Assembly: GCF_003363755.1 (NCBI RefSeq)
Contig: NZ_CP031396.1
Span: 4,682,501 to 4,746,500, forward strand
Source: Pseudomonas protegens
GTDB taxonomy: Bacteria; Pseudomonadota; Gammaproteobacteria; Pseudomonadales; Pseudomonadaceae
Direction: 5' to 3'
DNA length: 64,000 bases
In this document: positions 1,042 to 4,907 of the stretch, piece after piece
Layout of the letters: the number at the start of each line of letters is the position of its first letter
Numbering within the stretch: the first letter of the stretch is position 1
The notes under the pieces: generated by a model
The model's input: the letters and a program-made list of their open reading frames with translations, nothing else
What the model was told of the DNA's origin: nothing
The model's database searches: none
Program-made: the position numbers and the translations under genes

Positions 1042-1074
1042 TTGACGATATGTACGTAAAAGTCCAGTATGGAT
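1042..1074 (+). promoter_or_regulatory. Promoter with DauR-type operator for the binding-protein gene
   Basis: TTGACG (1042-1047), a 17-base spacer and CAGTAT (1065-1070) form a plausible sigma-70 promoter. GTCCAGTATGGAT (1062-1074) covers the -10 box and is nearly identical to the perfect palindrome GTCCATTATGGAC at the same place in the dauB promoter (4876-4888). Both are preceded by TAAAA in the direction of transcription. The sequence match is direct; that DauR binds here is inferred. Confidence 0.55.
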
Positions 1075-1156
1075 TTACAAGTACAAATACAGCGTCCTCC
1101 GTTTCATCCTTTCCTTCTGTCTTGCCAAACCAACAACAACCCGCGAGAGAACGAAC

Positions 1157-1933
1157 ATGAAAAAACTCCCCCTCATCAGTGGCCTGGCCTTGAGCTTGTT
1201 GGCGTGCAGCAGCCTGATGGCTGCCGAGAAAACCTTGCGCCTGGGCATCGAGGCGGCGTATCCGCCGTTCGCCTTCAAGACCGCCGACGGCAAGATCGGC
1301 GGATTCGACTACGACATCGGCAATGCCCTGTGCGCGCAGATGCAGGTCAAGTGCGAGTGGATCGAGGGCGAGTTCGACGGCCTGATTCCCTCGTTGAAAG
1401 TGAAGAAGATCGACGCCGCGCTGTCCTCCATGACCATCACCGCGGAACGGCGTAAATCCGTGGATTTCACCCACAAGTACTACTTCACTTCGTCGCGCCT
1501 GGTGATGAAGAAGGGCGCGGTGGTGGACGACCAGTACGCCAGCCTCAAGGGCAAGACCGTGGGCGTGCAGCGTTCCACCACCACCGACCGTTTCGCCACC
1601 GAGGTCTTCGAGCCCAAGGGCATCAAGGTGGTGCGCTACAGCAACAACGAAGAGATCTACATGGACCTGGCGGCCGGGCGCCTGGACGCGATCTTCGCCG
1701 ACACCATTCCCCTGGAGGATTTCCTGTCGATGCCGCGGGGCGCCGACTACGCTTTTGTCGGGCCTGAGTTGAAAGATCCGAAATACGTTGGGGAAGGCGC
1801 CGGGATTGCGGTGCGCAAGGGCAACAGTGAACTGGTTGGCGAGTTGAACAAGGCCATCGATGAGATTCGCGCCAAGGGCGAATATCAGAAGATCCAGGCC
1901 AAGTACTTCAAGTCGGATATTTATGGGGATTGA
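1157..1933 (+). CDS. Periplasmic basic-amino-acid-binding protein of an ABC transporter
   Basis: A 258-residue periplasmic solute-binding protein of the SBP_bac_3 (lysine/arginine/ornithine, HisJ-like) family. Residues 1-22 form a signal peptide ([22 protein letters not shown]), and the mature protein opens with the typical [14 protein letters not shown] strand. No permease or ATPase genes lie beside it, so it must work with a transporter encoded elsewhere. It faces the dauBAR operon and shares a near-identical operator with it, which suggests D- or L-arginine or another basic amino acid as ligand. A homologue (PA3865, as I recall) sits next to dauBAR in P. aeruginosa. Ligand specificity is not shown by sequence alone. 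Confidence 0.88.
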
Positions 1934-2009
1934 GACGTTGCGGCGTTCTTGAGGACGCTTTCGCGAGCTCGTTCCTAGGGGATATGTGCAGGGGCGAGCT
2001 CGGGAACCT

Positions 2010-2639
2010 TTATTGTCCCTTCAATTCCTTCAAGTGCTTGTACACCGTCGCCCGGCCCATGTTCAGCACGTTGGCCACGTAGTTGGAGGCGCTCTTGCCC
2101 TTGAAGGCACCTTCGGCGTGCAGCGCCAGTACCAGTTCGCGCTTGTGGTCGCGGGTCAGCAGGTTCAGCCCCAGCTGGCGCTCGCGCAGCCAGTTGTGCA
2201 AGAAAGTGTTGATGCGTTCCTGCCAGTCGTCGCGAAACAGTGAATCGGGCTGGGGAATCAGTTTGCTCGGTGAGAGAAACAGGTCCAGCGCGGCCTTGGC
2301 ATTTTCGAACAGCGAGATATTCAGGTTGATGCACAGCACGGCCATTGGCTGACCGTGGCTGTCGCGCAGCACGCTGCTGAGGCTGCGGATCTTCTGGCCG
2401 TCCCAGTTGAGCTTTTCATAGGGACCGATATTGCGTTCGTCGCTGTCGCCACTGAGCAAGTCTTCCAGGGCGGCATCGTCGCCCACTTCGCGCTTGGACA
2501 GGTTGTTGGCGATGTAGTCGATCTTCTGCGTGCGCAGGTCGTGGAGCACCACCTCGGCGTGAGGGAAAAACAGCGTGGCGATGGCATCGGCAATCGCCCG
2601 GAAATTATCCAGGGCTGGGTCCTTTGCGGGTGAGGTCAT
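2010..2639 (-). CDS. dauR: Transcriptional regulator DauR (YheO-like PAS plus HTH)
   Basis: This 209-residue regulator has an N-terminal YheO-like PAS domain (about residues 10-130, including FFPHAEVVLHDL) and a C-terminal HTH_22-type helix-turn-helix (about 150-209, ending ATVYKHLKELKGQ). In P. aeruginosa DauR represses dauBAR and is relieved by arginine; the domain order and position as third gene after dauB and dauA are the same here. It probably recognises the GTCCAnnATGGAC palindrome found in front of dauB and the binding-protein gene. The target site is inference; family and context are strong. Confidence 0.88.
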   Translation of the reverse strand: MTSPAKDPALDNFRAIADAIATLFFPHAEVVLHDLRTQKIDYIANNLSKREVGDDAALEDLLSGDSDERNIGPYEKLNWDGQKIRSLSSVLRDSHGQPMAVLCINLNISLFENAKAALDLFLSPSKLIPQPDSLFRDDWQERINTFLHNWLRERQLGLNLLTRDHKRELVLALHAEGAFKGKSASNYVANVLNMGRATVYKHLKELKGQ

Positions 2640-2729
2640 GGGTCGTACTCCAGGCGGCTTCAGCGCCCGCCGTTAGCGGGCGCTGGGAGTGTGCCGCAAT
2701 CGTTCGGGCGCGTCACCCCGCAGGCGGGT

Positions 2730-3857
2730 TCAACCGAGGCGGGCAGGGGAGAGCATGGCGGACTCCAGGCCGAAGCGGGTCAACTGCTCCGGCAGGGGTT
2801 GGCCACGCACCAGGGCGGCGCTGGCCTGGCCCATGGCCGGAGATGTCTGGATGCCGTAGCCGCCTTGCCCGGCGACCCAGAACAGCCCGGGCACCTGTGG
2901 ATCAAAACCGGCCAGCAGATCGCCGTCGCTGACAAAGCTGCGCAGGCCGGCCCAGGTCCGGGTCGGGCGACGAATACTCAGGGTGGTGGCCTCTTCGATC
3001 TGGTAGATGCCCAGGGCAATGTCCAGCTCTTCAGGCTGCACATCATGGGGCTCCACCGGGTCGGCGTTGGCCGGCGAACCGAGGAACATGCCGGCGTCGG
3101 GCTTCATGTAGAAGGACTCGTCCAGGCTCACCAACATCGGCCAGTGGTGAATATCGACCTCTTCCGGGCCGGCAAAGATAAAGGCCGCGCGGCGCTTGGG
3201 TTGCAGGCCTAGGGGACGGGCACCGGCCATCGCGCCGATCTGGTCGGCCCAGGCCCCGGCAGCGTTGATCAGCACCGGCGCACTGAAGCCCTGGCCGCTG
3301 GTTTGAACCTGCCACAGCCCTTGTTCATCACGGTGCAGCCCCAGCACTTCATGGTCGGTATAGACCTGGCCCTGATGGCGGCGGATGCCCCGCAGGTAGC
3401 CCTGATGCAGGGCGTCGGTGTCGATGTCGCTGGCACTGGGGTCGTAGAGGGCGCCATGGACCTTTTCGCGACGCAGGATTGGCAGACGAGCGCAGGCTTC
3501 GTCGGCACTGAGCAGTTGCATCTCCGGCACCGTGGCCTTGGCGCTCAGGTACTGGTTGTTCAGTTCGGCCGGATCGCCGGTGAAGTCCACGGTCATTTCC
3601 CCTCGTGGCGTCAGCAGCGGGTGGTCGCAGAAGCCCTCCGGCGGATGGTCGAAAAAGTCCCGGCTGGCCAGGGTCAGGGCCCGCACCTGGGCGGTGCCAT
3701 AGGCGGCGGTGTAGAGCGCGGCAGAGCGGCCGGTGGAGTGATAGGCCGGATGGGATTCGCGCTCCAGCACGATGACGCGGCCGTGGCGCGACAGCCAGTA
3801 ACCGGTGGAGGCTCCGGCGATACCGCCGCCGATGATGATGAAATCTGCCTGGATCAT
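2730..3857 (-). CDS. dauA: FAD-dependent D-arginine dehydrogenase DauA
   Basis: DauA oxidises D-arginine (and other D-amino acids) to the 2-oxo acid and ammonia; DauB then makes L-arginine. The 375-residue protein has the FAD Rossmann motif [14 protein letters not shown] at residues 8-21 and the [16 protein letters not shown] loop. Residues matching the described P. aeruginosa active site are visible: Y53, E87, R223, Y250 and R306 (the last three offset by one from R222, Y249 and R305). Residue 48 is leucine (SAALYT), where I recall histidine in the P. aeruginosa enzyme. It lies between dauB and dauR. Another D-amino-acid specificity is possible. Confidence 0.92.
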
Positions 3858-3891
3858 TCAAGGCTCCTGGAAAAGTGCTAGTGACAGGCCC

Positions 3892-4845
3892 TTAGTGCGG
3901 GTGCCTCAGGTGGTACAGGGCATTGGCCAGGGCGATGTCTTCCAGGCCCAGGCCGATGGAGCGGAAGAACACATGGCGCTCGGCGCTGGGGCGTTGAGCC
4001 TGGTTGCTCAGCAGCTCCGGCAGGTCGCCGAGAATCGCCGCGTTGTCCCAGCCGTGCTGTTCACCGGCAATCAGCATCTCGCCGGCCGAGCCCGGGGTGG
4101 TACGGCGATAGTCACAATAGACCTGCATCTGCTGCAGTGCGGCGGGCGGCACTTCGTGGGCCCGTGGCGCATTGGTGCTGATGGAGGTGATCAGCGCCGG
4201 CTTGTTGAGGGTGCGTGGGTCGATGACCGGTCCGGCGGACGAAGTGCAAAGCATGACCACGTCGGCATCTTCGACAGCCTCTTCAAGCTGCGGGACGATT
4301 TGCAGGCGCGGATCGAGGGCCTTGAGACGCGCAAGCTCCTCGGCGGATTTGCTCGCAAGGCTTGGGGAAAAGAGGCGGATGCTCTGCCAGGGGCGCAGGT
4401 CTTTCACGTAGTGCAGGTGAGCCTGGGCCACCGCGCCGCTGCCGATGATCGTCAGGTGCCGGGCCTCGGGCCTGGCCAGTGCCTCGACGGCGACCGCCGT
4501 GGTGGCGGCGGTGCGTGCGGTGGTCAGTTCGGCGGCGTCGCACAGCAGCAGCGGCTGGCCGCTGTCCATGGACATCAGCAGGGTCCAGGCGGTGACCAGC
4601 GGGCCTTCGGCGCGGACGATGTAGGGCGAAGTCTTGACCCCATACACCCGATCTTCAGCCAGCACCCCCAGGTAGTTGATGAAGTCGCCGGCGCCCTGGG
4701 GAAACTCCACCAGCTGCTGCGCCGGTTGCACGGCGAGTCCGGCGGCCAGGTCGCGAAACAGTTTGCGCAGGATCTGCGGGACGTCGATTTGCGCGAGCAA
4801 CTGGCGGGTTTCGGTCTGGGCAATCAGGTAGGGCGTGCTGGGCAT
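3892..4845 (-). CDS. dauB: NAD(P)H-dependent L-arginine dehydrogenase DauB (ornithine cyclodeaminase family)
   Basis: DauB reductively aminates 2-ketoarginine to L-arginine, completing D-to-L arginine conversion with DauA. The 317-residue protein belongs to the ornithine cyclodeaminase/mu-crystallin family and has the dinucleotide-binding motif LTIIGSGAVAQAH near residue 130 and the later DVVMLCTSSAGPVID segment. It is the first gene of dauBAR, with its own promoter and operator just upstream and the rhlB terminator behind that. Without its neighbours it could be mistaken for an ornithine cyclodeaminase. Confidence 0.9.
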   Translation of the reverse strand: MPSTPYLIAQTETRQLLAQIDVPQILRKLFRDLAAGLAVQPAQQLVEFPQGAGDFINYLGVLAEDRVYGVKTSPYIVRAEGPLVTAWTLLMSMDSGQPLLLCDAAELTTARTAATTAVAVEALARPEARHLTIIGSGAVAQAHLHYVKDLRPWQSIRLFSPSLASKSAEELARLKALDPRLQIVPQLEEAVEDADVVMLCTSSAGPVIDPRTLNKPALITSISTNAPRAHEVPPAALQQMQVYCDYRRTTPGSAGEMLIAGEQHGWDNAAILGDLPELLSNQAQRPSAERHVFFRSIGLGLEDIALANALYHLRHPH

Positions 4846-4875
4846 GTAGGCGTTCCCAAGGAGTTGAACTTATTT

Positions 4876-4907
4876 GTCCATTATGGACTTTTAGTTTCCT
4901 TGAGCAA
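4876..4907 (-). promoter_or_regulatory. dauBAR promoter with palindromic operator
   Basis: On the minus strand TTGCTC (4907-4902), a 16-base spacer and CATAAT (4885-4880) form a promoter. GTCCATTATGGAC (4876-4888) is a perfect 6+1+6 palindrome over the -10 box, 31 bases from the dauB start. An almost identical site lies in the promoter at 1062-1074. It is probably the DauR operator. Confidence 0.65.

Follow-up and report, generated by a model that had tools for sequence, protein, structure and literature searches.

The closest known relative of the system considered here is the D-arginine operon dauBAR of Pseudomonas aeruginosa PAO1, which we take to be PA3862-PA3864, with the gene of a solute-binding protein (SBP), presumably PA3865, lying next to dauR. 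Work by Li, Yao and Lu (2010, Microbiology 156:60-71) reportedly identified DauR as a repressor of dauB in PAO1, with 2-ketoarginine relieving the repression. Arginine genes in Pseudomonas are also co-regulated by the AraC-type regulator ArgR, and dauBAR of PAO1 needs ArgR for full induction. Here we describe the corresponding locus in a 64,000-nucleotide stretch of the Pseudomonas protegens genome (contig NZ_CP031396.1, positions 4,682,501 to 4,746,500; hereafter the window). It resembles PAO1 in the gene order dauB-dauA-dauR, in a DauA sharing 70% identity with the P. aeruginosa D-arginine dehydrogenase of known structure, in a palindromic operator before dauB and in an SBP gene beside dauR; in the present work a second operator, overlying the SBP promoter, is documented and followed through relatives. 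Comparison of sequences makes it very likely that one and the same DauR operator serves both the dauBAR and the SBP promoters; repression is the most likely mode of action, and is held less firmly than the shared operator itself. Uptake and breakdown of D-arginine would then probably be switched on together, since relatives keep both sites even where the genes have moved apart, and the SBP gene looks like a new addition to a regulon of known type.

In their available passages PMC2542419 and PMC3195088 describe PA3865 as an arginine/ornithine binding protein, whereas PMC9369656, as far as its available passages go, labels it a tRNase-type S-pyocin, in conflict with both. A DauR operator is not described in the available passages of the open-licence literature (PMC2542419, PMC9369656, PMC7789669, PMC8959810, PMC3195088, PMC5619798 and PMC4836201).

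The two sites and the promoters they overlap are composed of the following elements.

1042-1047, plus strand (SBP promoter): -35-like hexamer TTGACG (TTG conserved in this position in 72 of 73 SBP rows)
1052-1084, plus strand: extended operator of the SBP promoter, GTAC-N6-GTCCAGTATGGAT-N6-GTAC, a 33-bp dyad (sequence, and columns in 73 genomes)
1062-1074, plus strand (SBP gene): 13-bp operator core GTCCAGTATGGAT (read from the sequence)
1065-1070, plus strand: -10-like hexamer CAGTAT within the SBP core (CAGTAT or CAATAT in 63 of 73 SBP rows)
About 4867-4897, minus strand: extended operator of the dauB promoter, AAACTAAAA-GTCCATAATGGAC-AAATAAGTT (sequence, and columns in 73 genomes)
4876-4888, minus strand (dauB): 13-bp operator core, a perfect palindrome, GTCCATAATGGAC, also written GTCCATTATGGAC (read from the sequence)
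4880-4885, minus strand: -10-like hexamer CATAAT within the dauB core (CATAAT in 66 of 73 dauB rows)
4902-4907, minus strand (dauB promoter): -35-like hexamer TTGCTC (TTG conserved in this position in 63 of 73 dauB rows)

Both cores lie where an earlier note on this DNA had placed them, and its reading of them in the direction of transcription, as TAAAAGTCCATAATGGAC for dauB (minus strand) and TAAAAGTCCAGTATGGAT for the SBP gene, proved correct. Its claim that the core covers the -10 box of both genes fits the sequence: a -10-like hexamer lies inside each core, with a TTG-type -35-like element 16 bp (dauB) or 17 bp (SBP) away. Both operators exceed the 13 bp of that note, each core being embedded in a longer dyad.

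As evidence the 13-bp core alone was rejected, being no more frequent than in shuffles or in a reversed control: at up to two mismatches the window holds 3 copies against 4.2 expected from shuffles, and at up to one mismatch the whole genome holds 55 + 61 against 67 + 66 in the reversed control. GTCCANNATGGAY occurs at four exact places in the genome; the two besides the sites described here (L001 and L002) lie inside long open frames, and no place in these two loci scores above -25.1 and -12.0 with the matrix.

Built from the two window sites, the extended pattern TAAAAGTCCANNATGGANNNANNAGT matches at up to three mismatches only those two sites in the 6,667,995-base genome, with no third target and no match in the reversed control. 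A weight matrix trained on 146 sites from the genus, among them the two in the window, scores these two at 53.8 and 45.7, the same sites on the opposite strand at 20.3 and 12.2, and the next-best place in the genome at -14.7. When a matrix was made from dauB sites only, 66 of 72 SBP sites ranked first or second in their locus and the other 6 third.

The genus sample comprised 149 genomes, 75 with a DauR ortholog (identity of at least 82%) and 74 without. Regions upstream of dauB were readable in 73 of the 75 (not G122, G123), as were those upstream of the SBP gene (not G123, G137). Left out before counting were G123 (dauB at a contig end, no SBP found), G137 (no SBP found), G122 (no dauB), dauB-like genes at 54% (L102, L106), SBP-like genes at 57% (L103, L106), and SBP paralogs at 63-64% in G043 and G100 (second copy). 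For a dauB read cut by the locus end (L058) L157 was used instead and seven others were re-read, and for SBP reads cut in this way (L242, L321, L322, L330) L200, L358, L349 and L352 were used. All 73 dauB and all 73 SBP upstream regions carry the core, which never departs from GTCCATNATGGAC by more than two mismatches: 45 of the dauB cores are exact, 24 have a single mismatch and 4 have two, while 8 SBP cores have a single mismatch and 65 have two. By column, the SBP consensus is the 33-bp dyad RTAC-N6-GTCCA-N3-TGGA-N7-GTAC, its left arm being RTAC in the genus, and that of dauB is AAACTAAAA-GTCCATAATGGAC-AAATTA-GTTT. The 57-bp rows comprise 73 distinct dauB and 71 distinct SBP sequences, and therefore do not reflect recent copying. 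According to the earlier note, a lack of conservation in related strains would have spoken against a shared operator; in the genus sample the site is kept at both promoters wherever these could be read.

The strict pattern AGTCCANNATRGANNNANNAGT gave 124 matches in 70 of the 149 whole genomes and none in the reversed control. Since the dauB and SBP upstream regions alone also yield 124, with agreement in every genome, there is no match elsewhere, and the putative DauR operator is now defined precisely by a strict pattern without a match outside two targets in 149 genomes. The site depends on the presence of DauR: all 70 matching genomes possess it, and the 74 that lack a DauR ortholog yield no match. 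Having been built from the same genus, the pattern has its sensitivity there by construction, but not its specificity. The SBP gene itself (E up to 1e-100) was found in 73 of 75 genomes with DauR versus 1 of 74 without, that one at 63% identity. Conservation, the tracking of DauR by the site and the co-occurrence of SBP and DauR all support the earlier proposal that DauR may control the binding-protein gene and D-arginine catabolism together.

Beyond the genus, 30 of 198 genomes of a family sample match AGTCCANNATRGANNNANNAGT, all of them among the 56 with DauR (E up to 1e-60) and none among the other 142. In three other genera of the family we examined 20 of 40 genomes with DauR, and found the operator at both promoters in all 20, the dauB cores having one or two mismatches throughout. 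The genus matrix scored their dauB sites at 20.2-45.8 bits and their SBP sites at 5.4-38.8 bits. Among the loci listed from a named collection, 40 have DauR (at least 36 titled Pseudomonas, the rest unclassified, and partly the same genomes), and the core stands at two mismatches or fewer in 40 of 40 dauB and 31 of 32 SBP regions, the sole miss (L242) being a read truncated where the locus ends. Among the 80 loci listed from that collection none bears the name P. aeruginosa.

Ten genomes, belonging to three genera, have the SBP gene away from dauBAR, and in each of them it has kept its operator. Within the genus these are G046, where 2.4 Mb of a single contig separate the two, G129, where the distance is about 41 kb, and G107, G135, G058 and G038 (different contigs, with at least one gene well inside its contig); in two further genera they are G275 and G159 (about 100 kb), and G151 and G167, where the two are on different contigs and dauR lies far from the ends of its contig. 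G067 and G184, with SBP gene and dauR on different contigs, were not counted because dauR lies at a contig end, nor was G060, where the SBP gene is about 13.5 kb from dauR.

Paralogs of the binding protein lack the site. In the 20-genome set, all 10 paralogs at 60-63% identity score -14.7 or less, versus 5.4-38.8 for the 20 orthologs, and nothing above -16 was seen at the SBP-like loci L380-L384 (58-60%), making 15 paralogs without an operator in all, at 58-63% identity. G122 has no dauB that we could find, and carries a dauB-type operator (33.5 bits, L100:1860-1888) directly before dauA. For dauA loci without dauR in the stretch examined, 42 of 44 score 1.8 bits or less, 28 of the 44 being Betaproteobacteria as titled among the loci listed; L375 (3349-3377) and L376 (3348-3376) carry a decayed core TCCAGAATGGAA before dauA at 12.6 and 15.1 bits, with neither dauB nor dauR nearby. 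Genomes of genus g9 that have dauA and no DauR at E up to 1e-60 (G212, G284, G294, G310) gave no SBP match above 59%. The pattern where dauB or DauR has been lost supports the coupling between DauR and its site.

A separate observation concerns the Betaproteobacteria, where DauA homologs at 51-63% identity stand without DauB, DauR or operator in the stretch (L282-L294, L296, L298, L299, L301, L303-L306, L308-L311, L314, L316 and L317), which suggests a differently regulated D-amino-acid dehydrogenase.

How else might two such sites be explained? That they are a chance resemblance between promoters of shared ancestry gains something from the 13-bp core, which by itself is not rare, but the extended sites are unique genome-wide and are kept over diverged flanks (73 distinct dauB and 71 distinct SBP sequences) as well as where the SBP gene is unlinked, and we give this explanation practically no credence. 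Scarcely more credible is a reading of the palindrome as a terminator or RNA hairpin instead of a binding site for a protein. The terminator scan did see 4876-4888 followed by TTTTAG as a terminator-like site on the plus strand, yet the palindrome lies upstream of opposite-strand genes, its outer arms are conserved, and we rejected the terminator on the grounds of a stem of only 5 pairs, a count of 3 such sites versus 3.7 in shuffles, and the recurrence of the palindrome over the -10 of a second promoter.

It is likewise improbable, if a little less so, that another regulator such as ArgR reads the palindrome with DauR as a bystander. ArgR co-regulates arginine genes, and its requirement for full induction of dauBAR in PAO1 would suit such a role; to our knowledge, however, ArgR is general in the genus, and the strict site is absent from all 74 genomes without DauR. 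Palindromes of like build moreover accompany DauR-like paralogs with nearly the same helix-turn-helix (HTH) region. The alternative we take most seriously, while still thinking it unlikely, leaves DauR at the SBP promoter in another role, for example as an activator or as one among several regulators dominated by ArgR. This is compatible with DauR binding at both promoters, and the weak -10 hexamer of the SBP promoter (CAGTAT) and its GTAC arms, versus AAC/GTT at dauB, both favour it, but the core has the same position relative to the -10 as at dauB, and there DauR is said to repress.

Several observations weigh against an operator shared through DauR. A sigma-70 scan at its own threshold called no promoter in 900-5100, and the promoter assignment rests on TTG conservation (63/73 and 72/73) since the scan saw neither promoter. 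The strict pattern finds nothing in five of the 75 genomes with DauR, four of which have variant operators (G034, G036, G060, G075) while one is unreadable (G123), and the co-occurrence of SBP and DauR (Fisher p about 5e-39) is computed ignoring the shared ancestry of the genomes. A second SBP copy in G100 (64%) carries a partial site with three mismatches. In the three other genera only 11 of 20 SBP cores have one or two mismatches and 9 have three, and the weakest SBP operator (5.4 bits) is that of G270, which has the DauA closest to the P. aeruginosa enzyme (93%), no genome among 25 searched in the genus of G270 having a DauA more than 93% identical to it. G314, with 420 contigs, has an SBP ortholog (66%) and operator (29.9 bits) and no DauR or DauA that could be found; lying outside the strict pattern, it is the one exception to the site occurring only where DauR is present. 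Finally, PA3865 occurs in the main text of PMC2542419 once, in a table of tested mutants, and therefore that screen, as far as its main text goes, gives PA3865 no phenotype.

On the reading of one DauR operator at both promoters, DauR would bind the dyad of about 33 bp as a symmetric dimer (or pair of dimers), cover the -10 region and block RNA polymerase. Oxidation of D-arginine or D-lysine would give a keto acid product that releases DauR, whereupon dauBAR, including dauR, and the SBP gene might come on together. If catabolism of these amino acids does relieve DauR repression, enzymes, regulator and periplasmic receptor should therefore rise together. The SBP, with no permease adjoining, probably serves a permease encoded elsewhere, for instance the Aot system. 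We infer that DauR binds at the SBP promoter, that it represses by occluding the -10 region and that the SBP has such a permease partner. The otherwise unassigned binding protein, which we take to be PA3865 in PAO1, thereby gains a probable role in D-arginine/D-lysine uptake.

The dauB, dauA and dauR homologs form one operon in the window, and the genes of the locus are given below.

485-937, plus strand: moaE, the neighbour of the SBP gene besides dauR
1157-1933, plus strand: SBP gene, periplasmic solute-binding protein for cationic amino acids (SBP_bac_3; TIGR01096 lysine/arginine/ornithine)
2010-2639, minus strand: dauR, regulator with PAS_6 (YheO-like) and HTH_22 (Pfam domains), last gene of dauBAR
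2730-3857, minus strand: dauA, flavin adenine dinucleotide (FAD)-dependent D-arginine dehydrogenase (best PDB matches are DauA entries)
3892-4845, minus strand: dauB, ornithine cyclodeaminase/mu-crystallin family (domain assignment)
4967-6463, minus strand: DEAD-box helicase gene, beyond dauB

The best PDB matches of DauA are 6p9d (E 5.6e-178) and 3nyc (E 7.2e-178), and the dauB product may, by analogy with PAO1, be an L-arginine dehydrogenase. DauR scores 93.1 bits for PAS_6 and 62.3 bits for HTH_22 (Pfam gathering scores 27 and 29.6), and a PDB sequence search with it gave no significant match. An inverted repeat at 4917-4952, with A and T runs on either side, lies between dauB and the helicase gene; by eye it resembles a two-way terminator, and the terminator scan did not call it.

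The binding protein resembles ArgT/LAO of Salmonella in that it passes the TIGR01096 subfamily model (272.7 bits, cut-off 256.35) and has LAO structures as its best PDB matches. Unlike ArgT, it falls below the ArgT equivalog NF011586 (257 bits, cut-off 440), and its gene, between moaE and dauR, adjoins no transporter or permease gene. Residues Y14, S69, S70, R77 and D161, which we take to be LAO ligand contacts, are as in LAO in all 93 ortholog rows, while LAO D11 is replaced by E in 92 of 93 rows (and in 12 of 12 paralogs) and L117 by Q in 93 of 93. The mostly kept contacts would fit cationic amino acids, and do not discriminate between the D and L forms.

Twelve loci with DauR-like regulators at 57-65% identity to DauR (group B) allow a comparison of the sites that PAS_6/HTH_22 (YheO-like) regulators may recognise. 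DauR passes both Pfam cut-offs and the relatives' palindrome has the same layout; the relatives differ in the core GTCYACNGTRGAC and in GAAT/ATTC arms. The variant palindrome was found in 9 of 12 loci (L101, L103-L105, L107, L108, L110-L112), lying in 7 of the 9 at 35-93 bp past the regulator gene, by another operon, and no site was found in L102, L106 and L109. A group B matrix was trained on nine sites from eight loci, which either came up with the DauR matrix or were picked out by eye from its results; finding them again with the group B matrix is therefore circular, only L111 being outside the training set. In L110 a GTCYACNGTRGAC-type site precedes an operon of threonine/serine dehydratase and an ornithine-cyclodeaminase-family protein. 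We regard group B as a probable regulon of its own, and its palindromes as a further hint that regulators of this type may read such sites. In the HTH region (residues 139-209), K182R, N186D and H202Y distinguish DauR from group B, these being the only positions with one residue in more than 90% of 95 DauR rows and another in more than 80% of 12 group B rows.

A wider picture can be drawn only tentatively, and we lean somewhat against its holding in every part. DauR would be a dedicated two-promoter regulator in four genera, joining an orphan receptor (perhaps for D-arginine/D-lysine, acting via the Aot permease) to racemising enzymes; PAS_6/HTH_22 regulators might follow a common rule of a dyad of about 30 bp, GTCYA-N3-TRGAC plus outer arms; and K182R, N186D and H202Y might accompany the switch of core from GTCCATNATGGAC to GTCYACNGTRGAC.

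Two minor observations concern more distant regulators. The own genome's second PAS_6/HTH_22 regulator (about 30% identical to DauR) has a palindrome GTTGAATATTCAAC (L153:2910-2938; G000:C1 near 6453009) within roughly 100 bp before its matched stretch, possibly its own operator. A site close to GCGGAAAACTCCCACTTGGAAAAGTAGGT recurs (L147:5735, L149:5725, L150:800, L116:3918) at 0.3 to about 2 kb from distant DauR paralogs (32-36%), and is perhaps the operator of these regulators.

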